Shown: positions 353 through 18,938 of the stretch, in pieces
How positions within the stretch are numbered: position 1 is the stretch's first letter
Layout of the letters: each line of letters opens with the position of its first letter
Source: a virus
Virus record (IMG/VR): IMGVR_UViG_3300045952_000261
Location: 1 to 28,544 of that record
Reading direction: 5' to 3' (one strand)
DNA: 28,544 nucleotides
Made by a program: the position numbers and the translations under genes
The notes under the pieces: generated by a model
Databases searched by the model: none
Told to the model about the DNA's origin: nothing
The model's input: only the letters and a program-made list of their open reading frames with translations

Positions 353-3163
353 TTACTCTGTTGTCTCTGGATGTAGTGCTCTGTCCAAGGTAGACGAAGA
401 CACACCTAGTGTTGATGCAATCTCTGCCTGGGTGTAGCCCAAAGCTATCATGTCCTTGGCCCGGTTCAACTTGGCGTCGGTCATCTTGATTACTTCACGG
501 GGGATGGCGTGTTGCTTCACCACATCCATGTCCGCCTTTGCCAAGATCTCCCGGAGCTTTGTTTCACTGATGGCCCCGGCTTGAATGGCGTCCCATTCTG
601 AGTCGGTGATCACAACCCTACTGCGTTCTAGCCCCACCAAACGACGGGCTTCTTCAAGGGACTGATTCCTGATCTTCTTCTCAGTCTCTTCGTCCATGTT
701 CGGATTAGCATCTTTCTTCTGCCGAACGATGTCATTAGCCCGCATTGTGGCCTTTCTTTCAAGGGGCCTGTTTCTTTGGATGAGGTCTAGTTTTGCATTG
801 AGGGAGGCCACTTCAGATTCGTAAGTCTTTGCAGCAGCAGCATTCTTTTGGACGGGGGGGAGTTTCAAAGACTCAAGGCGGGCCTGGTTTGCCATAGCCT
901 TAAGCTCATTAGAATGCGTAGCGTAGATGACTTCTATCTTGGTGGGAGGGGGGCCTGATGTGAGGGTGAATGCGTCATCAGTTTCGGCTAGCTTGGTGCT
1001 CTTAACCTTTACTAGTGATTCTTCACCCGTCTTCTTGTTTGTCCGAATCTTCCCCGTTTCGGTATACATCCTCTTTCCAGTGACGGGGTCAATTGGACCA
1101 CCTTCTCTGGCACGTCGTTCAATCCTATCAGGAACACGTGTTTCAGATGTAGCTCTTGAAATGAGGGTAGATGCACCGCGTCTCGCACCACCTTGATACC
1201 TCTCCTTCAACGCAGAGATACCATTGTCAGTTTTTGACTGCTTGTAGTTGAGACTGTGTTTGTCAGAATCGATCACAACCATGGAATGACGAACAGCTGC
1301 AGCTATCTCTGTTTGATTTGCACCCTGAATCGTCATGTCCGTGATCAAGTTCGAAACATCGCCCATCTCACGCTGTTTGGTTTGAAGATTTGGACCCTTT
1401 GGCCCATAGATAACAGACCTGGTTGCCTCATCCCAACGCCCACCATCAATGGTTCTCATCCCATCAACTGGTGGATACGATCTCTTGGTGTCGAAGTTCT
1501 TCAAACCCTCAAGCGATGGAGTGGTTGTGATCTTTCGATGATCGTTTGGGATCACAAGAACAGTATCGCCATCAAAATCAGCGCCTGACAAACGGTTAGC
1601 AACATCGGCGTTGAACCCAACAGCATCACGAGGTTGCAGACCAAGATTTCTCCTAGCCTCAGCATGCTTGTTGTTAACCGTCAGCTCTGGGATCTCAAAT
1701 GTTCCACCATGGGGGTATCTAATTACAGCTACCGTCTCCCCATTGTTGAAGTGTGGAGCATAGATCTCATTGTTGCCAAGAGTATCAACGGGAAGGATAA
1801 CCTGCCAACGTTGACGTGGCAGCGAAGCCGCCTTGAGATGAACTGCTGCAGCATCAGTCTCATCGGCAAACTCTTCCAACAACTTCTTCTTGACTGTTGG
1901 ATTGGTTGTTGCCATGATCTTGGCGAACTCAACCTTCCGACGTTCGAGAGTCATGTTCAACTGATTCTGAGCGAGCTTTGGATCCTGCTTTGAAAGCATT
2001 TGAGAAGATATGGACTTTGTCCACGTGACCCAGTCGCCTTCTTCTCGAACGATGTTCATTGCTGATGTAACACGCTCATTACCATCGTCATCTCTGACCA
2101 TGATTTGACGCTTGAACTGTGCTCCGAACGGATTGTCTGGATCAACCTTCCCAGTCTTCGGATCTCGCATGTCCTTGAAGGCATCACTCTTGTTTCCGGT
2201 GTCCTTCTTGTTCGTGTTGAACATGAGGTCGACACCATCTGGCAAGTCGTCTTTGTAGACGGCCATACCCTTCAAGTAGTGGTGATCATCCACTTTGATC
2301 CGGACTTGGGCATAGCTCGAACCACCAAGAGAAATATCTTCTACGCCAGGTCGAACGTAGATGACGCCGTCAGCACCTGACCCACCCTGATCGCCATAAA
2401 TCACACCGACACGGTCGGAAGAAATAGACAAGGGGGGATGAATTCCGAAGTGGGTGCGCCCACCATCTTCAGAGAAGGATTGCAGCGTGCCAATTCGATC
2501 TTCTCTTGCAGCTTTGGCAGCTTCTGCGAACGTGGTTCCAGGAACACACAGAACCTTGACGTTCGTCTTTTCGCCAGTCCCAGGCTGTGGAACCTTGATG
2601 GTATAGGTGACATACCCAACATCGGTCAACCTACCGATGGCTGTGTTCTTGGTTGTTTCGCTGACGCCCATGTAGTTCTCGTTGCCCGTGCCAACATCGA
2701 GATATGTCTTCGCATCAACCTCGCCTTTGAGCAACTCGGCTGTTCCAACAACCGCCTCCGCCTTGCTGTCTGCTCCTGGCTTGAGAAGGGCACGATATGA
2801 CGATTCAGGAATCCCCATCTTCTCGGCACCAGCAGTGTTGCCATACCCCTTGTCCTTCAGTCTTTGAGCTTCAGCGATTTGCCCAGCTTTGAACTCGGCC
2901 TTCGCAATTCTCTTGACCTCACGAAGTTGAGTGGTAGAACCTTCGCCCTTGTGGTTGACAAGACCAAGAAGCTTTGCGAGTTCTGCTCCGTCATCGAGAC
3001 CAAACTTCGCCTTGAAGTCTTCGTAGACATCAAGGAACTTTCGGCTGTTCTGATATGGGGTGTCTGGGCCATGAGCGTTGTCGCCAGATCCCCATGGATA
3101 CCTACCCGAACGACGAAGGATGCCGTAGTGAGCCAGATATTCGGATTCGTCTAAGATCACCAT
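353..3163 (-). CDS. Double-psi beta-barrel RNA polymerase-like protein with flanking HTH segments
   Basis: A 936-residue protein. Residues 529-533 are DFDGD within RLSGADFDGDTVLVIP, matching the Mg-binding aspartate motif of multisubunit RNA polymerase beta-prime, phage YonO-type single-chain polymerases and QDE-1-type RNA polymerases. Upstream, an RYPHGGTFEIPEL segment resembles the R-x-P...D-I/L segment that precedes this motif in QDE-1-like enzymes. A further upstream segment with WTKSISSQMLSKQ could be the lysine-bearing first barrel. Residues 96-127 (ending GIPESSYRALL) and about 902-930 (YTQAEIASTLGVSSSTLDRAL) look like helix-turn-helix units, which could give promoter or template binding. 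It overlaps the upstream nuclease gene by 7 nt. The catalytic motif is seen directly; RNA polymerase activity is inferred from it. A role in copying other nucleic acid cannot be excluded. Confidence 0.75.
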   Translation of the reverse strand: MVILDESEYLAHYGILRRSGRYPWGSGDNAHGPDTPYQNSRKFLDVYEDFKAKFGLDDGAELAKLLGLVNHKGEGSTTQLREVKRIAKAEFKAGQIAEAQRLKDKGYGNTAGAEKMGIPESSYRALLKPGADSKAEAVVGTAELLKGEVDAKTYLDVGTGNENYMGVSETTKNTAIGRLTDVGYVTYTIKVPQPGTGEKTNVKVLCVPGTTFAEAAKAAREDRIGTLQSFSEDGGRTHFGIHPPLSISSDRVGVIYGDQGGSGADGVIYVRPGVEDISLGGSSYAQVRIKVDDHHYLKGMAVYKDDLPDGVDLMFNTNKKDTGNKSDAFKDMRDPKTGKVDPDNPFGAQFKRQIMVRDDDGNERVTSAMNIVREEGDWVTWTKSISSQMLSKQDPKLAQNQLNMTLERRKVEFAKIMATTNPTVKKKLLEEFADETDAAAVHLKAASLPRQRWQVILPVDTLGNNEIYAPHFNNGETVAVIRYPHGGTFEIPELTVNNKHAEARRNLGLQPRDAVGFNADVANRLSGADFDGDTVLVIPNDHRKITTTPSLEGLKNFDTKRSYPPVDGMRTIDGGRWDEATRSVIYGPKGPNLQTKQREMGDVSNLITDMTIQGANQTEIAAAVRHSMVVIDSDKHSLNYKQSKTDNGISALKERYQGGARRGASTLISRATSETRVPDRIERRAREGGPIDPVTGKRMYTETGKIRTNKKTGEESLVKVKSTKLAETDDAFTLTSGPPPTKIEVIYATHSNELKAMANQARLESLKLPPVQKNAAAAKTYESEVASLNAKLDLIQRNRPLERKATMRANDIVRQKKDANPNMDEETEKKIRNQSLEEARRLVGLERSRVVITDSEWDAIQAGAISETKLREILAKADMDVVKQHAIPREVIKMTDAKLNRAKDMIALGYTQAEIASTLGVSSSTLDRALHPETTE

Positions 3164-3717
3164 TCCCCCCTCAGTTTGAATTCCTCGATTGCTTGGTCGA
3201 ATGCCACAATCTTCTCCATGATTCGTGCGATTGTTTCAGGATATGGCTCGAACACTCGGATGTTGTCATTCTGGTAGATGCGCAACTCAATCCCGATATC
3301 ATGTGGGGACATGATGTACTCGAGACAGAATAACGCTGCGTAGACCTCCAGCTGGTGTTGGGAGCCATCCAAGACTCCGGTCTTCAGGTCGTGTACTCTC
3401 AGAATATCACTACGGAAGCAGAGGGTGTCTGCATGACCATAACAATTCGGAGAGTAGTAAAGCGGTTGCTCAACAGACATGTGAAAGCCAATAGCATCAT
3501 TGACATACATGTTGAGAGTACGCTCCTCGTCTGGTAATCGAATACCAAGACGGATAGCCTCATGAGCAAAGGCGTGGAGCTCAGTTCCACGGACAGCAGC
3601 GCGATGTGCAACATAGCGTGCCTCCAGCTTTTGCTCGTTGTAGTTGATCCAGTGGTAGTTGCTCGGACTCAGGAAGGCGTGCTTACCTGCCAAATCGGAA
3701 TGTGTGTTGAAGTTCAC
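3157..3717 (-). CDS. PD-(D/E)XK nuclease (Cas4/RecB-like)
   Basis: A 186-residue protein with the ordered motifs of the RecB/Cas4 branch of PD-(D/E)XK nucleases: His48 in GTELH, Asp97 in YGHADTL, Asp110-Leu-Lys112 in HDLKTG, and the QLEVY motif (Gln122...Tyr126) that follows the catalytic core. This predicts a metal-dependent exo- or endonuclease acting on phage recombination or replication intermediates. The start is a GTG inside the end of the VRR-NUC gene, overlapping it by 35 nt, and the stop overlaps the polymerase-like gene, so the three are probably translationally coupled. No four-cysteine iron-sulfur cluster pattern is visible, unlike classical Cas4. Confidence 0.8.
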   Translation of the reverse strand: MNFNTHSDLAGKHAFLSPSNYHWINYNEQKLEARYVAHRAAVRGTELHAFAHEAIRLGIRLPDEERTLNMYVNDAIGFHMSVEQPLYYSPNCYGHADTLCFRSDILRVHDLKTGVLDGSQHQLEVYAALFCLEYIMSPHDIGIELRIYQNDNIRVFEPYPETIARIMEKIVAFDQAIEEFKLRGEW

Positions 3718-4355: not shown

Positions 4356-4847
4356 TCAGAGAAGCTCGTAAATATGGCCTGTAGGGAAAACGGGACGTCC
4401 ACTGAGGGCTGAGTTGTAGACCAATTCCCAGAGAACGCCATGTGCCATGCCAGCCAACATAGTACTGGCATAGCGCATTCTCGTGGACTGATTCCCGATG
4501 GGAATTCGGTACTCCGGGGGTATTGGATGGCTGAACTGATTCTTGTACTTCCAGGCATACCACCGTGGCCGCCAGGCGAGGTTTTCGTAGTAGTTGTTGT
4601 TCTGATGCCCATCCATGTGGATTGGGACGTCTGAGGGCATTCTAGGGCCCTCTGCGAAGGCCTCAGCTACCAACAGAGCCACCGAACGTGTTGTAGTTGT
4701 CCCTTCTTGGATCAAAGTCACCTTCAAGACCCCAGATTGGTTGAACGACAGAGCGAGACGGCGATTCTTCCACCTCGAGTAGATCTCACCGTGATCTGAC
4801 ACGTCGTAACCGGGAAAATCAGGGATTGGAGCCCATCTTTCACTCAT
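4356..4847 (-). CDS. NUMOD4/HNH-type DNA-binding or homing-nuclease-like protein
   Basis: A 163-residue protein. Residues 5-22 (WAPIPDFPGYDVSDHGEI) are a textbook NUMOD4 start. Around residues 77-90 there is an HNH-like core (His77-Met-Asp79, Asn83-Asn84, Asn89-Leu) followed by RPRWYAWKYKNQF, which recurs in phage HNH proteins. The C-terminal part (TMLAGMAHGVLWELVYNSALSGRPVFPTGHIYEL) is an extra region. The family includes free-standing phage HNH homing endonucleases, but the HNH histidines are not fully canonical and activity is uncertain. The start at 4847 is supported by an AAGGAGG 6-7 nt upstream. A structured leader of three hairpins precedes it. Confidence 0.7.
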   Translation of the reverse strand: MSERWAPIPDFPGYDVSDHGEIYSRWKNRRLALSFNQSGVLKVTLIQEGTTTTRSVALLVAEAFAEGPRMPSDVPIHMDGHQNNNYYENLAWRPRWYAWKYKNQFSHPIPPEYRIPIGNQSTRMRYASTMLAGMAHGVLWELVYNSALSGRPVFPTGHIYELL

Positions 4848-7564: not shown

Positions 7565-8140
7565 TTACTTGAAAGAGGGCCCCCACCAACCCATGTTGAT
7601 GGTCTGCCTGCAACCCTTCGTTACGGTCAAGACCTCATGAAGAATCCAGGAAGGGAACACCACGATCGTCCCCTGTGTTCGAGGAATATCGTAGTACTCC
7701 GGCCATGGAAGCACACGGAGCAGCCCTCCTGTGTAGGCAGTCGAGTCTGACAGAATCGCTACTGCTGTCAGCTTTCGGCTCTGCCCAGGTGTGGCATCCG
7801 TATGCATTCTGTAAGCGTCACCAGGCAGATATGTCTGCATGTATGCGCTTACCGAATTGAGTTGGAATTGGAAGTACTTCTCGTTTACCGCTCTTCCGAA
7901 GTGCATGATCGGAATAAGCGAGTTTGGCATCACCTCATCTGGCTCTCTGGTGGTCGCATCACAACCTGGGAATTTGTGTGGCTTGATCTCTGTCATGTCA
8001 GAGATGATTGCTTGACACTGTTCCTTGTCCAAGACAAACTCACGGTACACCGCCCAGGGCATCATGCTTGGAATCATGTGCTCTGGTGTGGCCTCGAATG
8101 CCTGTTGTAGGCGCTTCTCTGAAGGAATTACTACATCCAT
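7565..8140 (-). CDS. 2-oxoglutarate/Fe(II)-dependent oxygenase (prolyl-hydroxylase-like)
   Basis: A 191-residue protein with the double-stranded beta-helix signature of PKHD/P4H-type dioxygenases: iron ligands His113-x-Asp115 (YRMHTDAT) and His168 (ILHEV), and the 2-oxoglutarate-binding Arg178 (CRQTINMGWWG). The TAVAILSD, TGGLLRVL and GTIVVFPSWILHEV strands have the expected order. Such enzymes hydroxylate protein side chains or, in some phages, modify nucleobases; the substrate here is unknown. The ATG at 8140 has an AAGGAG upstream. It is placed in the accessory region beside a secreted protein and a membrane peptide, not within the replication genes. Confidence 0.85.
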   Translation of the reverse strand: MDVVIPSEKRLQQAFEATPEHMIPSMMPWAVYREFVLDKEQCQAIISDMTEIKPHKFPGCDATTREPDEVMPNSLIPIMHFGRAVNEKYFQFQLNSVSAYMQTYLPGDAYRMHTDATPGQSRKLTAVAILSDSTAYTGGLLRVLPWPEYYDIPRTQGTIVVFPSWILHEVLTVTKGCRQTINMGWWGPSFK

Positions 8141-8427: not shown

Positions 8428-9354
8428 TTATCTGGTTGGTGGCAGGAGTTGTGGTGTCGGGACGACGGTTGTCGTCGTGGTGGGTGGGTTCTCGGGGCTG
8501 GCACATGCAGCCGTTGCTGGTGGGTATTCGACGAAGCCCACAACCGAAGGGTTGAAGAAAGCGTCGATGGTCAGACCCTCTCGAAGGATCTCGTCTGTTG
8601 GGTCTTCCTCCCAAATACCGTCCTCGTTCAAGATCCAGCCAGGCCAATCGGGTGGATTGACTGAAGCTCCAGGCCAGATGAACTGTCCTGATAGCGGTTG
8701 GTTCTCCAGAACCTGCACGACATTCCCATTGGCATCCAACAAGGTGATCGTCACGCCGTTAGTAGGCTGCGGGCGGTTCTCCACCTCGAGGGAATATGAG
8801 ATGAATGGGAAGTCATTGACACAGATCGGCCCAAGGAACGTGAATGCGAATCGCTCAGGCAGAGTCGTAGTCGTGCTCTCCGGGACCGTGGTCGACGACG
8901 TCGTCGATGAGCTTGTGGAGCTGCTCGTCGTGGAGGACGTCTCCGGGACGCTGCTTGTCGTCTGCGGGACGCTCGATGAGGAAGTGGTGGATGGGGTCGT
9001 AGAGGTACTGCTTGTGCTTGTCGTGGACGACGAGGTGGTCGTCGTGGTGCTCGATGTCGTAGATGACGTTGTCGTTGTCGACGTTGTCGTTGTCGACGTG
9101 TCTTCCGGTTTGCATGCTCCCAAGTAGTCCTGTTCATGCCCCGCTCGGGGCGTTCCGTTCTCGAAGAAATGCCCTGCTGGGCCGAAGGCTGCCGGATATC
9201 CCACAGTGATGGTGTTGTAGTGGGTCGTTCCGTCAAGGCCGGCTGCGTGGCACAGTGTCACTTGCTCTTGCCCATCAGCCAACACCACTCGTGCGGCGAA
9301 GATGATGGAGATGAGAAGAACAAGGATCACCGAGATTGGTGGTACTTTCTTCAT
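8428..9354 (-). CDS. Secreted Ser/Thr-rich two-domain protein
   Basis: A 308-residue protein predicted to be exported. Residues 1-26 form a signal peptide (KK, then ISVILVLLISIIFAARVVLA). Residues 30-80 contain TLCHAAG...ITVGYPA...GPAGH...GHEQDYLG, resembling a Cys-His domain (xxCHATG...) found in exported actinobacterial proteins. About residues 86-168 are almost pure Ser/Thr with a few Pro, a likely extended or glycosylated stalk. A C-terminal beta-rich domain with Cys residues follows, then a Thr/Pro-rich tail. No LPXTG or lipobox is seen. The start overlaps the upstream stop (ATGA). It may decorate the infected cell surface or the virion; neither is proven. Confidence 0.8.
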   Translation of the reverse strand: MKKVPPISVILVLLISIIFAARVVLADGQEQVTLCHAAGLDGTTHYNTITVGYPAAFGPAGHFFENGTPRAGHEQDYLGACKPEDTSTTTTSTTTTSSTTSSTTTTTSSSTTSTSSTSTTPSTTSSSSVPQTTSSVPETSSTTSSSTSSSTTSSTTVPESTTTTLPERFAFTFLGPICVNDFPFISYSLEVENRPQPTNGVTITLLDANGNVVQVLENQPLSGQFIWPGASVNPPDWPGWILNEDGIWEEDPTDEILREGLTIDAFFNPSVVGFVEYPPATAACASPENPPTTTTTVVPTPQLLPPTR

Positions 9355-9731: not shown

Positions 9732-10286
9732 TTACTCGTCGACCACGGGGGACAACTCGGCGATTGCTTTGTTACCCCACATGCATGTTTCCTCGAGGTG
9801 CGTCAGGGCAAGGCTCTTGGCCCGACCCTCTGGCAGAATGGAATCGAGAGCTCGTCCGAGCTCCATGCACTGCTGCCGCCACAGCTGATGCGCATGTGCA
9901 GCACTGTCACCGGCTGGCTTGTGGTAGCCCATCCGGTGTCGGATCTCCATCGGCCCAAATGTCGTGTAGTCACGCATTGTGTCGTATGGTCCGATCGTGT
10001 TGTCTTCCAGCTCGTCGTACTCAGCCATGAATGTGATCTCCTCGGTGATCGTGACTGTTGTTTCCTCGACAACTTCTCCTGCGAGAAATTCTCGGATGAT
10101 GCGAATGGCGCATTCCACTGCGCCCTCAGACTGACTCGGCTCACCAGGCACCTCCTCCATGATGAACCGAGCCAGCTTTTCGATTTGCGTCTCTGCGGTG
10201 GAATATGGATTCGTGTCTTCGAGACTCCAATCGTACGATCGGCTTGTTGCCTCTCGAATCCCGTCATGGCGACGAGGTTCACTCAT
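9732..10286 (-). CDS. Protein with C-terminal Acb2/Tad1-like hairpin domain
   Basis: A 184-residue protein in two parts. Residues 25-70 (KLARFIMEEVPGEPSQSEGAVECAI...) form a helical region seen in other actinophage proteins. Residues about 116-178 (RHRMGYHKP...LWRQQCMELGRALDSILPEG-RAKSLALTHLEETCMWGNKAIA) match the two-helix Acb2/Tad1 hairpin pattern: an xxYHxP entry, a helix with LA/LG, P-x-x-R-x-K-S-x-A-L and LEExxMWxNxAIA. Known Acb2/Tad1 proteins form oligomers that sequester cyclic oligonucleotide or ADP-ribose signals of CBASS and Thoeris defence. Function here is inferred; some phage proteins carry this domain without a tested role. It overlaps the SSB gene by 8 nt. Confidence 0.65.
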   Translation of the reverse strand: MSEPRRHDGIREATSRSYDWSLEDTNPYSTAETQIEKLARFIMEEVPGEPSQSEGAVECAIRIIREFLAGEVVEETTVTITEEITFMAEYDELEDNTIGPYDTMRDYTTFGPMEIRHRMGYHKPAGDSAAHAHQLWRQQCMELGRALDSILPEGRAKSLALTHLEETCMWGNKAIAELSPVVDE

Positions 10287-10758: not shown

Positions 10759-13700
10759 TTACCTTTCCACGAATTGTTCGTAAGAGCCGTAGTTGTTGAT
10801 GGCATCGAGAGCTCGCTGCCTGAGGTGTTCGAAATATGAGTAGTCGACATTGAGGGCATTGTTGTCCTTACGGAACTGTGCAACCTCACGCTGCACCCAC
10901 GAATATCCCTTCGTGCCAGCCACTGCATACTGTTTGTCGTCCTTGACTCGCCAGAGTTGACCTCCGCCGTCGAGAACTGGAACAAAGCTGCCGGTGCGTC
11001 CGACATGGACCATCATGGTTCCTCCATCCACAGGATCTGCGATCTCGAGGTACATGAGCCCAACCGTGACGCTCCTCGTCTCACAGAGATCGTCGAACTC
11101 GATCTCCTCGTGACTGAACAGCTGCTTGAAGACGTATGGATGTTGGAACTGTGAGCCAACCGCTGTCCACTTGTCGCCCTCTCGAGCAATATAGACAGCA
11201 TCATTGACAAGACAGAACTTGTCGTACACACCTTCGAGCTCGAACTCATAGCCGTACTCAGCACCGAAGCCAACGACAAAGTCGATGATCTCCTGTGTCG
11301 CATGAGGGATCTTGATCGAGTCGGTCTTGATGTGAGCTACGGTGAACCCACGATCCTGAACCGCCTGTCTCAGATCGATCATGAAGAGCGCGCCTCGTTT
11401 GGCAACAATGTTGTCCTTATTACGGTTATCCCGAAACGAGTTCTCAAATCGAGCGCTAGTGAGTCCATAGACGATGTTGATGACGATCTTGAGTGCGTAC
11501 GATAGAGCCGCAACACTTTCAGACCGGTCTTCAGCGTCAACCAGATGCTTGGCGAGTCGACCGCCAAGGAGACTACGGGCGTTCTCGTAGTCCTTGCGCT
11601 TAATTGCCAAGCGCGCTTCTTTGAGGGCTGAGAAGTTGGCTGTGTAATCTCCGAAGAGATTAAGCCGTTCGATACTCGTCGGATGCATACTCGCCACATC
11701 CAGAACGGTAACTTCCTCGTATATGCCTGGTTCGGCATACACATAACCCCCCTCACCGACGATTTCTCCATGGTACGTGCTTTCCTTTCCATCAAATTGG
11801 TACCCTGGGAATTGCTGTGTGAGATCCGTGTAGATGAACTTGGCCTGTGGGTGCTTGTCATCTCCAAATATGATCCGAGCTGTGTGCTGCTGCGTCGTGT
11901 GATTGACCGTGAGGCCCGAAATATCCGCAAGGATCTCTCGTGCCACGAAGTCTTGACGACGTGATTCGAACACTGCTTCCGTCGAGAGCACATCGTTGCT
12001 GCAATACTCGATGACCTGAGGCCACTTCTCTACTGGGACCGGTTGGTCCCAAGCCAAGTCGAGCTCCATGTGATGGATGCCCAACTCGATCTGGAACTTC
12101 TTGAGTCCTTGCTTCTTCGAACTGAAGTCGAAAATATCCGTGTAGGACAGATTGTACGCTTCACCGAAGAGTGCACTTGACTTGTCTGCGATCAAGTCCT
12201 GACTGAGCTGGTACAAGCGAGCGTTGTCGTAGCCCAAATACCGACCATAGAGAATATGGTTGTCGTAGCGACGGTTGTTGAACCCGATCAACTTGAGATT
12301 GAAGAGAGGCTCAATCTCCTGTGCCGACGGATTCACCATCTTCGCAACTGGTCCACCCTCTGGTTTCCAACACACCACGAAGAGGTTTGGGTAAACCTCC
12401 ACATCGAAGAACACCAACGGACTGCCGTCTTCGGTTGACGGCGCAGGCATGTCGTTCTTACCGACGAATTTCATCGTCTGCACGATCTTGATGCAGTCCA
12501 TGGAATGGTGCGAACTCTTGGCTGCAAACGCCAGAATCTTCGGGCGCATGTCCAAGATGTTGTAGCTCAGACCTGAGTCGTAAGCCTCTTCGAGAATATG
12601 GTGGATGAAGTCCACGGATGGCTTGGTACCTGGATGGATCTCCTTACGGAGGTTCCTCTCAATGAGTTCACGAAGAGCCTTCTCACTCTTCATGCTCTTT
12701 TCTTCGATCACTTTGCGCTCCTTCTTCGGAAGCCCAGAACTGATCTCGGCGATGTCGAGATCGTTGCATTTCGTGAGCTTTCTACGAAGCGACTGATCAC
12801 CAAGGAGAGTCTTCACCTCAATGCCTACGTCGTAGACGCTTGCCAGCTCATGGACATCCCCAGTGTAAATATAGTGTAGGTGTACACCGAATCCACTCTG
12901 GGAGAGTTCTGTGTATGTCGGAGGCCACTTGGCTGCCTCCGCCAGGTTCTGCTCGAGGTCCTTTTCCCCGTTCTCGTCGACCAAGTCGAAGTCGATCACA
13001 ATATGGTTCTCAGGAACCTTGACCCAGTGAAGCTGTGTGGTGTCAAGATCTTCAAGAACCGTTGTGCATTGAGCCCACCTGTATCCAGGGAACCCACTGT
13101 CCTTTGCGTACTGAGCCGGTGCACTGGCGTAGCCACCGTTGAAGACGGACTCGCCTTCGAAGTCATGCAGCTCGATGGAATATGGCGGAAGATGGACCAG
13201 TTGTGGCTTCATCTTGAACACGTCCTTGTATCCACTGAACCAATTCCGGTGACGCTCACCTTCGATGGTTGCTCGTTCCTCGACATGGTCGAAGTAGTTC
13301 TCGAGCTCAGCACGGAATTTGTACATGGGCCAGCGACTGACGCCGGACTCCTCGCAGTACTGCTTGTACATCTCCCATGCCTGCTTCAACGACACACCGT
13401 CCTGAGACCTGAACACGTCGTGACAAGACTCAACGTAGTTGAAGAAGAAGTCAGTCTGGTACTGCATCTTCGTCGGTGCGTAGTCGCTGTAGTAGTTGGC
13501 TCCCAACGTCTCGTAAACCTCGAGACAGTGATGCGCAATACCACCAAGCTCGAACCCGATCTTCGTGATCAAGTCGTGGTACCGACCATTCTCGATCAAA
13601 CTGCCTGACGGACTCACGTCAATCAAGCGTCGAATCACACCAGCTTTCGCATTGCGGATCTTGACAGGCTCGTTCGTTCCGATGAAGAGGAAAGCCTTAG

Positions 13701-14502
13701 GCACGATCGCCACAGGCTTGATGTACTTCTCGTTGATCGAGATCTCTTCGTGCGCCGTAATCGTATTGAGAAGCGTGTTGTCCTCGATACGAGACATGTC
13801 ACCATCGTGCTGGATTGCCACGAGTGGATTGTGCTTGAACGGTGCTGTGGCGAACGTGTTGTTCAGCCCTGTCAGATCCTTGGCATTGAATATGGTCGTG
13901 TAGCCCTCGAACAGATCCTCAATGATGTTGAGGACAGTCGACTTGCCACTACCTGGCGGACCGTAGAAGACGAGGAACTTCTGAATGTTGACCGAATCAC
14001 CAGAGACAACTGCTCCGATGGCCCATTCGATCTTCTGTCGTTCCTCTTCCACGTAGAGAGTCCCTACCAACTCCTCCCAAGCCTCGTAGCCACTTGGCTC
14101 GAGAGAATATGGCAGCCGACGAGTGGCGTAGTCTGTCTTCTTCGTCTCTGTGTTTTGGAATACCAGCTTTCCATCAAGATCCCGCCTGTTCTCAGGAAGG
14201 CTCTCGATGAATCGCTGGATCCCAACCCACATCTTGGAGTCCCAGTTACGGAGGTACTTGACCCACGTCGGTGCTCCCGTCTTCTCCTGGTACTCTCGAT
14301 TGAATCGACGAAGATCTTCGTCGATCAAACGCTGTAGGTCGTACTCATCCCTCGACCACAATCCTGTCGCTTCATCCCAGACCGCCTGGAATGAACCATG
14401 GTTGACCAAGACATCAGTGATTCGTCTGTCGATGACCCACTCAGGATATATGACGTGGGTTCCGTCTTTCTCACGAGTGACTCGAATGTCGTAGAAATCC
14501 AA
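10759..14502 (-). CDS. SF3 helicase - PrimPol primase - family B DNA polymerase fusion
   Basis: A 1247-residue single chain with three replication enzymes. Residues ~130-460: SF3/D5-type helicase with Walker A GPPGSGKS (from 181), Walker B-like LVAIQHDGD and motif C AFLFIGTNEP. Residues ~460-640: archaeo-eukaryotic primase (PrimPol) with Asp504-x-Asp506 (VIDFDL), the SGFGVHLHY motif and a third-motif candidate DIAEISSG. Residues ~690-1247: family B polymerase, with 3'-5' exonuclease motifs (FFDVEVYP, Asp700/Glu702; GFNNRRYD; YCSNDV), motif A DVASMHPTS (Asp935), motif B KIVINIVYG and motif C IKTDS (Asp1061). The start is TTG at 14502, 5 nt after AGGGAGG. All key residues are present, and the reading frame is open throughout, so this is not an assembly join visible by frameshift. 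Confidence 0.9.
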   Translation of the reverse strand: MDFYDIRVTREKDGTHVIYPEWVIDRRITDVLVNHGSFQAVWDEATGLWSRDEYDLQRLIDEDLRRFNREYQEKTGAPTWVKYLRNWDSKMWVGIQRFIESLPENRRDLDGKLVFQNTETKKTDYATRRLPYSLEPSGYEAWEELVGTLYVEEERQKIEWAIGAVVSGDSVNIQKFLVFYGPPGSGKSTVLNIIEDLFEGYTTIFNAKDLTGLNNTFATAPFKHNPLVAIQHDGDMSRIEDNTLLNTITAHEEISINEKYIKPVAIVPKAFLFIGTNEPVKIRNAKAGVIRRLIDVSPSGSLIENGRYHDLITKIGFELGGIAHHCLEVYETLGANYYSDYAPTKMQYQTDFFFNYVESCHDVFRSQDGVSLKQAWEMYKQYCEESGVSRWPMYKFRAELENYFDHVEERATIEGERHRNWFSGYKDVFKMKPQLVHLPPYSIELHDFEGESVFNGGYASAPAQYAKDSGFPGYRWAQCTTVLEDLDTTQLHWVKVPENHIVIDFDLVDENGEKDLEQNLAEAAKWPPTYTELSQSGFGVHLHYIYTGDVHELASVYDVGIEVKTLLGDQSLRRKLTKCNDLDIAEISSGLPKKERKVIEEKSMKSEKALRELIERNLRKEIHPGTKPSVDFIHHILEEAYDSGLSYNILDMRPKILAFAAKSSHHSMDCIKIVQTMKFVGKNDMPAPSTEDGSPLVFFDVEVYPNLFVVCWKPEGGPVAKMVNPSAQEIEPLFNLKLIGFNNRRYDNHILYGRYLGYDNARLYQLSQDLIADKSSALFGEAYNLSYTDIFDFSSKKQGLKKFQIELGIHHMELDLAWDQPVPVEKWPQVIEYCSNDVLSTEAVFESRRQDFVAREILADISGLTVNHTTQQHTARIIFGDDKHPQAKFIYTDLTQQFPGYQFDGKESTYHGEIVGEGGYVYAEPGIYEEVTVLDVASMHPTSIERLNLFGDYTANFSALKEARLAIKRKDYENARSLLGGRLAKHLVDAEDRSESVAALSYALKIVINIVYGLTSARFENSFRDNRNKDNIVAKRGALFMIDLRQAVQDRGFTVAHIKTDSIKIPHATQEIIDFVVGFGAEYGYEFELEGVYDKFCLVNDAVYIAREGDKWTAVGSQFQHPYVFKQLFSHEEIEFDDLCETRSVTVGLMYLEIADPVDGGTMMVHVGRTGSFVPVLDGGGQLWRVKDDKQYAVAGTKGYSWVQREVAQFRKDNNALNVDYSYFEHLRQRALDAINNYGSYEQFVER

Positions 14503-14515
14503 CGGAACCTCCCTT

Positions 14516-15046
14516 CTAGCCTGTTTGTTCTTGGTCTTCCAAATATGCGAAGAACTGATACCAGATCTGCATCGCTCGTAGGTCGTACTTGTGCGTGGTC
14601 AAAGGGAACAAACCTCCGTTGCCGAGTTCGTCGTATTCTCTCCAAACGAATTTGTAGAGAATATCATCAACCTCGTCTAGGTTGAATCGTGCGTCGTTGT
14701 GCTCGGCTAGATGCAAGTTCCCCAAGAACTCCCAAAACCAGACACTGATGGATCGTCTTACTTGAAAGTCCGCCCGACGAGCAAAAGCGATAAGCACCTC
14801 GAATACAGAGCATCCGAAGTGTCGCCATTCCTCATCGGGTTCGAACCCTGACTCAAGCAAGAACTCATCTCTGAGATCTAGTCCGTCTGCTGCTCTGCTG
14901 TCATCGCCAACAACCAACCATACGAATTCTGTCTCATACAATCGTCGGAACAACTTCCAGTAAGTAGTAGACGGACTATGGACCTCAAGATATAGGACTT
15001 TTGCGCAGAGCCAGTTGAAGTAGATGTGTTCAAGAGGCTCTTCCAT
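14516..15046 (-). CDS. Conserved phage protein of the core block, function unknown
   Basis: A 176-residue soluble, Trp/Phe-rich protein. Its YWKLFRRLYETEFVWLVVGDDSRAADG start, the GCSVFEVLIAFARRADFQ middle and the WFWEFLGNL...FVWREYDELGNGGLFPLT end are patterns I recognise as conserved in phages, always without known function. It begins just after the 15050-15826 gene and ends just before the replication fusion, whose TTG start follows within 14 nt. The GGAG ribosome site lies in the end of the preceding gene. Confidence 0.75.
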   Translation of the reverse strand: MEEPLEHIYFNWLCAKVLYLEVHSPSTTYWKLFRRLYETEFVWLVVGDDSRAADGLDLRDEFLLESGFEPDEEWRHFGCSVFEVLIAFARRADFQVRRSISVWFWEFLGNLHLAEHNDARFNLDEVDDILYKFVWREYDELGNGGLFPLTTHKYDLRAMQIWYQFFAYLEDQEQTG

Positions 15047-15835: not shown

Positions 15836-16696
15836 TCAGAGCTTATTGATGATGACTCCGTCGACGTTGAAGTCGAGCAGAATCACCGGTTCGATTCCGT
15901 TGATGAACTGGATGGACTGTGGATCGAAGATCCCGAAGTCCACGTAGTTGTCGCCCTCACCCCCGAGGTACCAGCCGACCGCCTGGCCGGCAGATGTCTC
16001 CGGAATATCGAGCGCTTGGTAGACCTCGTTCAGGAACACGAAGCCTTTGGCTTGCAGCTTCTGGTTGAAATATGTCTGCTGAACCTGGAGGAAGATCCGG
16101 TTCATCTCGACATCCTTCTTCCAGTTCGCTGAACTGGCGTCGAAGAACTTTGCGTACGGAGACCACTTCGACGGATCAGCGGTCTTGACCATGATGGCCC
16201 GACCTTTCTCATCCGTGTCCGGAGTCTTCTTGACTCCGTAGTAGATCTCCCGTTCCTCGTCCACACCGACCGAAGCCCGAACCCTCTCTCGGTACTCCAT
16301 GAAGGCGATGTGCAGGGCAGAATATGCTGCCGTCAGCGCATTGTTGCGCTTGGTCAGCTGGACGTGTCCTCCGGCGAGGCAGGCGACTGAGACTGCCCCA
16401 ACTGTGAGAGCTGGTGCATACACTTTTGCAAGGCGACCAGCGCTTCTGATGTAGGTATGAGCAACGTCACTACGAGTGACTTTGCCTTCCTGCTCCTCGT
16501 CACCAGCCTTGACCTCCTCGATGTCGTGCTGAATCTCGTCCAGCACCTTCTGAGCCTTGAGCGTTGCACGGCAGGCCAGCACCGTGCTCACACCGATGCC
16601 GACGATGCCTACACCGAACAGAATATGCGGGCTATTCTGCTTGACGGACAACTGCGTACGACCAGCGAACCTGGTCAAGCTTTGCTTGATTGACAT
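15836..16696 (-). CDS. DUF6353-like membrane protein, paralogue 1
   Basis: A 286-residue protein with a hydrophobic segment at ~22-40 (SPHILFGVGIVGIGVSTVLA) and another around 105-120 (VGAVSVACLAGGHV), then a long helical stretch (YSALHIAFMEYRERVRASVG) and a C-terminal domain (ALDIPETSAGQAVGWYLGG...PVILLDFNVDGVI). It aligns along its length with the protein at 18061-18816: SPxIxxGxxIxGVxxTAxLxxRAxLKAxK, then the second span, then AxxxxxxAYSEYK/AFMEYR, then GLD/ALDIP...VGW. I assign DUF6353 from memory with moderate certainty. The start overlaps the upstream stop (TGATG). Confidence 0.75.
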   Translation of the reverse strand: MSIKQSLTRFAGRTQLSVKQNSPHILFGVGIVGIGVSTVLACRATLKAQKVLDEIQHDIEEVKAGDEEQEGKVTRSDVAHTYIRSAGRLAKVYAPALTVGAVSVACLAGGHVQLTKRNNALTAAYSALHIAFMEYRERVRASVGVDEEREIYYGVKKTPDTDEKGRAIMVKTADPSKWSPYAKFFDASSANWKKDVEMNRIFLQVQQTYFNQKLQAKGFVFLNEVYQALDIPETSAGQAVGWYLGGEGDNYVDFGIFDPQSIQFINGIEPVILLDFNVDGVIINKL

Positions 16697-18060: not shown

Positions 18061-18816
18061 TTACCTCGTCAAACCCTCGTAGAGGATCTTGTAGTAGTTG
18101 TACGAAAATGCCAGGCATGGACGTCCGTCTGGCGTGATAACTGGCGTGAACTCCAATTCCAGCATCTTGTCTGAAGTCCATCCAACATCCGCCGAAGATG
18201 ACGTTGGATCCAGACCGACAAGGTAGTAAAGGTCGTCCATCGTGCAGCTATCTCGTTGAATGAGCTGTGCATTGATGTCATTCACGGACTTCCGGAGAGT
18301 CTCCATATCGCTCGTAAAGTAGCGCCCTGTGTAGAGCTCGCAACACAGTACGTTCCCCGGGCCGGATATCAGCATAGGCGGATTGGCAGCAATTTGCTTC
18401 TCGGCAAGCTTCGCCCTGAGCGCCTCCTCCTTCTTCTCGCCGATCTCCTCGATCACTGCGTCCTTGTATTCGGAATATGCACGCTCTGTCAGAACAAACG
18501 CCGCCTGTGCGGCAGCGGCACGGTTGTGCCCGATACGTGCTGTCCCGATAACGCAACCTGAGGTCAAGACTCCGGCTACAACTGGCGGAATATAGCACTT
18601 CCATACCAGCTTTGCGTGACGCTTGCGCCTGTCTTTTGGGAACTCCGCCGGTCCTCCTGGATGCCGGTTGTAGTCCGCCATTCTGATGATCTTGTCAGCC
18701 TTGAGTGCCGCCCGTGCTGACAAATATGCAGTCGCAGCCACACCGATGATCGCACCACCGGTGCAGATGGCTGGAGACTGTCGACGAACGCTTCTGATGA
18801 CTGATTCGAAGTTCAC
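18061..18816 (-). CDS. DUF6353-like membrane protein, paralogue 2
   Basis: A 251-residue protein starting VNFESVIRSVRRQSPAICTG. Hydrophobic segments at ~16-35 (GGAIIGVAATAYLSARAAL) and ~80-100 (VVAGVLTSGCVIGTA), a helical AYSEYKDAVIEEIGEKKEE stretch, and a C-terminal domain (YYLVGLDPTSSSADVGW...LAFSYNYYKI) matching paralogue 1 at 15836. The GTG start overlaps the upstream stop (GTGA) and is preferred over an ATG 48 nt upstream inside the preceding gene. It ends the short operon that begins at 19014. Confidence 0.75.
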   Translation of the reverse strand: MNFESVIRSVRRQSPAICTGGAIIGVAATAYLSARAALKADKIIRMADYNRHPGGPAEFPKDRRKRHAKLVWKCYIPPVVAGVLTSGCVIGTARIGHNRAAAAQAAFVLTERAYSEYKDAVIEEIGEKKEEALRAKLAEKQIAANPPMLISGPGNVLCCELYTGRYFTSDMETLRKSVNDINAQLIQRDSCTMDDLYYLVGLDPTSSSADVGWTSDKMLELEFTPVITPDGRPCLAFSYNYYKILYEGLTR

Positions 18817-18938
18817 CTGTTGCGCATCTCCCTGACGAATACCCAGATGAGCCAGAGACCGCACGTGAACAGCGTCATGAAGCAGTCTCCGAGAAAATGG
18901 AAGAAGCCGTAGTGCCTACGGCCATAGCAGTCACGCAT
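18813..18938 (-). CDS. 41-residue membrane protein
   Basis: A 41-residue frame starting MRDCYGRRHYGFFHFLGDC and continuing MTLFTCGLWLIWVFVREMRNR. The H...MTLFTCGLWxxW segment resembles a small actinobacterial and phage membrane protein family I recall. It overlaps the 27-residue peptide upstream and the DUF6353-like gene downstream (GTGA), which supports translational coupling. Confidence 0.65.
   Translation of the reverse strand: MRDCYGRRHYGFFHFLGDCFMTLFTCGLWLIWVFVREMRNR

Follow-up and report, generated by a model that had tools for sequence, protein, structure and literature searches.

A single-chain phage replicase with predicted SF3 helicase, AEP primase and family B polymerase domains, homologous to GP55 of lactococcal phage 1706

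Can a helicase, a primase and a proofreading polymerase be carried by one viral protein and, if so, is such a fusion a new kind of enzyme? This question is raised by a viral DNA of 28,544 nucleotides (IMG/VR record IMGVR_UViG_3300045952_000261; hereafter the window, meaning the whole stretch analysed), in which the minus strand from 14502 to 10759 reads as a single uninterrupted frame of 1247 residues and the plus strand of the same interval has stops throughout. The replicase start codon is the TTG at 14502, and this start position is common to most relatives, which have MDFY-, LDF- or VDF-like N-termini there in an alignment of 19 members. From motifs and predicted folds, the domain order is helicase, AEP, aHD, exonuclease and polymerase, with the following features.

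10759..14502, minus strand: helicase-primase-family B polymerase replicase, 1247 aa, TTG start (ORF; phrog_4210; GP55 identity)
14508..14515, minus strand: Shine-Dalgarno-like AAGGGAGG, 5 nt ahead of the replicase TTG (direct reading)
13219..14205, minus strand: SF3 (D5-like) helicase module, about residues 100-428, with Walker A GPPGSGKST (181-189), Walker B-like VAIQHDGD (228-235), sensor N277 and Arg finger candidates R291/R292 (PF19263, E 1.6e-13; fold; invariance)
12712..13185, minus strand: predicted AEP primase catalytic domain, about residues 440-597, with DFD (504-506), SGFGVHLHY containing H541, and E562 (model, fold match, invariance)
12445..12705, minus strand: four-helix aHD-like domain, about residues 600-686, with Y647 and F659 (model helices; GP55 mapping)
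11863..12423, minus strand: 3'-5' exonuclease domain of PolB, about residues 694-880, with D700, E702, D789 and D837 (invariance; GP55 mapping)
10762..11862, minus strand: family B polymerase domain, about residues 881-1247, with motif A D935, motif B K1005...Y1012 and motif C K1059-T-D1061-S (motifs, fold)

The frame could in principle be an artefact of assembly or of a frameshift that joined separate genes. No support for this was found; in one relative (L180), a 1.2-kb insert (12691-13878) containing an HNH-like ORF interrupts the replicase at about residue 894. Isolated phages, and most of the viral and genome-derived loci that were found, have the same fusion in a single frame, and because of this recurrence the artefact was rejected, its probability being close to nil. 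Rfam gave no match in the window and no intron or other match in the L180 insert. In two relatives, Streptomyces phage pSt2402 (L183, 2504-2959) and a second locus (L089, 7215-7655), a short (about 150 aa) stand-alone paralogue of the SF3 core lies upstream of the full replicase; it is internally shortened and retains the Walker A motif. The original prediction had described three modules with their key residues in one 1247-residue frame, and all of the residues that it cited were confirmed: Walker A G181-K187, D504/D506, D700/E702, D935 and D1061 are invariant among 19 aligned members including GP55. In a wider alignment (n = 75 family members), the catalytic residues tested were again invariant, and the remaining ones checked were invariant or nearly so.

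The fusion itself is not new. The original prediction regarded a proofreading PolB behind a helicase-primase as unfamiliar, and this claim fails because many described homologues carry the same domain order. First, the only PHROGs family found for the replicase, phrog_4210 ('DNA polymerase'), spans residues 1-1246 with 1777 bits, and in the phage collection 403 records match the protein, 252 of which cover at least 80% of it, mostly annotated as 'DNA primase/polymerase' or 'DNA polymerase'. Profile scans for relatives drew on the best 80 of 435 matches in viral contigs and the best 80 of 149 in bacterial genome contigs. Second, a PolB group with SF3 helicase and PrimPol domains fused N-terminally has been named HelPrimPolB in a 2020 study that credits a 2016 survey with the earliest description of the fusion, and its divergent PolB, with an altered motif C and KxY, was placed in the EpsilonN-like clade (PMC7544198). 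The window protein shares the N-terminal SF3 helicase and PrimPol, the divergent PolB and the altered motif C with this group, and no difference from it was found; the EpsilonN-like placement is that of PMC7544198. Third, a 2025 study of purified GP55 from lactococcal phage 1706 demonstrated helicase, RNA primase, PolB and 3'-5' exonuclease activities, together with strand displacement and de novo synthesis on ssM13, and reported more than 1000 homologues (PMC12205980).

Using the GP55 sequence from NC_010576, we found by BLASTP 39% identity to the window protein over 1206 columns (E 0, residues 1-1171), and phrog_4210 covers GP55 residues 1-1312 with 1799 bits. Both proteins have the order helicase, PriS-like AEP, aHD and exonuclease/PolB, as well as a KTDS motif C, and the window protein is 70 residues shorter. 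All seven mapped GP55 positions where mutation abolishes an activity (PMC12205980) are conserved as identical residues, with K189, D509, Y655, F667, D712, E714 and D949 of GP55 corresponding to K187, D506, Y647, F659, D700, E702 and D935, respectively. Closer relatives, about 48-56% identical to the window protein from end to end, occur in many records of actinophages (Gordonia OhMyWard, Rhodococcus ReqiPoco6, and Arthrobacter, Streptomyces and Microbacterium phages), where they are annotated by name only as 'DNA primase/polymerase'; the literature searched described no biochemistry or assay of these relatives or of the window protein.

Among the Pfam families, DUF5906 (SF3-type ATPase region, PF19263) alone was above the cut-off (E 1.6e-13), and the NCBIfam matches to the P4-primase C-terminal region and to Pol II were both sub-threshold. 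Since Pfam, NCBIfam and PHROGs resolve few domains of the replicase, the folds were tested by structure, using AlphaFold2 models compared with Foldseek and VIA-align, and SF3, AEP and PolB folds were each matched. A near-full-length model (residues 52-1247) had a pLDDT of 83 and a pTM of 0.49, a value at which the arrangement of the domains is not reliable and was therefore left uninterpreted. Its first 370 or so residues (about 52-425) match SF3 helicases of the SaPI5, NrS-1 and D5 type with Z 17-21, and its last 550 or so (about 692-1240) match family B polymerases with Z of about 14.8.

For the primase, a fold comparison was needed because a PDB-chain sequence-profile search with the AEP and aHD alignment gave no AEP match. 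A separate model of residues 440-694 (255 residues, from an alignment of 75 sequences) reached a pLDDT of 93. Its first 150 residues matched NrS-1 PrimPol in Foldseek with E of about 1e-4, followed by pRN1 ORF904, and residues 447-595 aligned with NrS-1 PrimPol (6a9w) at a VIA-align Z of 10.0 over 143 residues and 3.4 A. Failure of this segment to model as an AEP had been named beforehand as a result that would count against the prediction; the segment did model as an AEP. D504, D506, H541 and E562, which represent the DxD, sxH and acidic third motif of AEP, were each found in 75/75 members. The predicted AEP assignment rests on these motifs, the fold match and GP55.

Between the primase and the exonuclease lies the four-helix part, absent from the original prediction. 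It gave only low-Z, unrelated structural matches, and it fits the aHD reported in GP55, a domain that primer synthesis requires there (PMC12205980). At the two mapped positions, residue 647 is Y in 67/75 and F in 8/75 members, and F659 is found in 75/75. The primers made by this primase are probably RNA, as are those of GP55. That the AEP module is instead a true PrimPol, making dNTP primers or serving gap or damage tolerance beyond laying RNA primers for the fused polymerase, is suggested by the closest fold, that of NrS-1 PrimPol, a dNTP polymeriser. However, GP55, with like motifs and aHD, makes RNA primers from NTPs without incorporating deoxynucleotides and gives no significant product with dNTPs alone (PMC12205980), and we regard a true PrimPol as improbable. 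Because of this dNTP result for GP55, the label 'PrimPol' should be used with care, and it may be a loose one for the RNA primase that we favour here.

The NrS-1 and pRN1 ORF904 proteins also have an AEP fold and a helicase on one chain. Their AEP is N-terminal and their helicase C-terminal, the reverse of the order in the window; they have an HBD instead of the aHD, and they are without PolB or exonuclease. Membership of this type was rejected because of the domain order, the helicase of the window protein preceding the AEP and PolB following it.

In the C-terminal PolB, D700, E702, D935 and D1061 are invariant and the motifs are intact. Motif C has Lys in place of the first Asp (KTDS, not DTDS), a substitution that the original prediction had passed over and that is in line with the divergent motif of the EpsilonN-like clade PolBs. 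The absence of this Asp, together with the unusual Walker B (QHDGD), could indicate that at least one module, such as the polymerase or the helicase, has lost its catalytic activity and remains as a relic or scaffold. But K1059 occurs in 75/75 members and also in GP55, a proficient polymerase (PMC12205980), and with the near-invariance of the other catalytic residues a dead module is very unlikely.

The surroundings of the replicase contain the following genes, the first four of which have counterparts in phage 1706.

10279..10755, minus strand: phage ssDNA-binding protein, directly downstream of the replicase (PF24083, E 4.6e-55; phrog_4787, as GP66 of phage 1706)
5021..6190, minus strand: separate helicase (phrog_62), counterpart of phage 1706 GP67 (PHROGs)
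3157..3717, minus strand: exonuclease (phrog_3953), counterpart of phage 1706 GP69 (PHROGs)
353..3163, minus strand: RNA-polymerase-like protein, 936 aa, with an ADFDGD motif, counterpart of phage 1706 GP75 (phrog_4291, 'RNA-dependent RNA polymerase'; motif by eye)
15836-16696 and 18061-18864, minus strand: two DUF6353 copies (PF19880, E 2.5e-66 and 8e-61)

The SSB stands next to the replicase, as originally described; in phage 1706 it lies about 4 kb off. Replicase, SSB, helicase, exonuclease and RNA-polymerase-like gene follow the order of the window in 66/66 scanned loci that have all five, including phage 1706, whose PHROGs and order are the same. Among loci in which six or more of the eight module genes occur, the full order was kept in 111/118 and a single strand in 118/118. 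The RNA-polymerase-like protein is reminiscent of YonO-type single-chain RNA polymerases, and a PDB sequence search with it gave no match. Immediately upstream of the replicase, a small gene of phrog_4678 (14516-15046, minus strand) is present in 163/179 loci scanned, and the DUF6353 copies, also upstream, have counterparts near the replicase in most relatives. A putative NUMOD4/HNH-type endonuclease (4356-4847, minus strand) is located inside the replication module. Other minus-strand genes encode a 2OG-Fe(II) oxygenase (7565-8140; PF13640, E 1.2e-10), a possible surface protein (8428-9354) whose N-terminus is signal-like and which has long low-complexity tracts rich in Thr and Ser, and a protein with a C-terminal Acb2/Tad1 hairpin domain fused to an unrelated N-terminal part (9732-10286; PF24729, E 1e-16). 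The Acb2/Tad1 hairpin domain occurs in phage anti-CBASS and anti-Thoeris sponge proteins.

A difference from GP55 that may matter lies in the ATPase site of the helicase. K187 is invariant (75/75), but the Walker A is GKST in the window protein and 71/75 aligned members and GKGT in GP55, and the Walker B is QHDGD in the window protein and most aligned members and DADSD in GP55. The GP55 helicase is UTP/dTTP-dependent (PMC12205980); with a site unlike that of GP55, nucleotide use may differ and this dependence may not carry over. Because both Walker motifs differ, we tentatively propose, as a possibility on the doubtful side, that the helicase of the large clade holding the window protein, the actinophage proteins and many other relatives may use ATP, or an NTP set other than UTP/dTTP.

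In conclusion, the window protein is a further example of a known, biochemically characterised kind of enzyme, and it is almost certainly a HelPrimPolB-type replicase of a tailed phage, with homology to GP55 along its whole length. This reading draws on what was observed here, namely the gene, its three folds and aHD, the kept catalytic residues and the conserved neighbourhood. If it works as GP55 does, the N-terminal SF3 module would unwind DNA and promote dimerisation, so that the replicase is possibly a dimer, the AEP and aHD would lay down short RNA primers, and the C-terminal PolB would extend and proofread them. From the genomic context, the nearby SSB would coat displaced strands, and the phage may depend little on the host replisome. 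The original view of a protein able to prime, unwind, copy and proofread, with an adjacent SSB, thus keeps its functional part, backed by motifs, folds and GP55, and loses its implied novelty. Unwinding, priming, copying and proofreading by a single chain is striking and potentially useful for isothermal amplification, as already reported for GP55. What this work contributes is a family member with about 39% identity to GP55, whose clade differs in the ATP site of the helicase, together with a replication-module gene order, RNA-polymerase-like gene included, that is strongly conserved. If the proposed nucleotide use is true, one scaffold would carry differently fuelled helicases within one replicase family.
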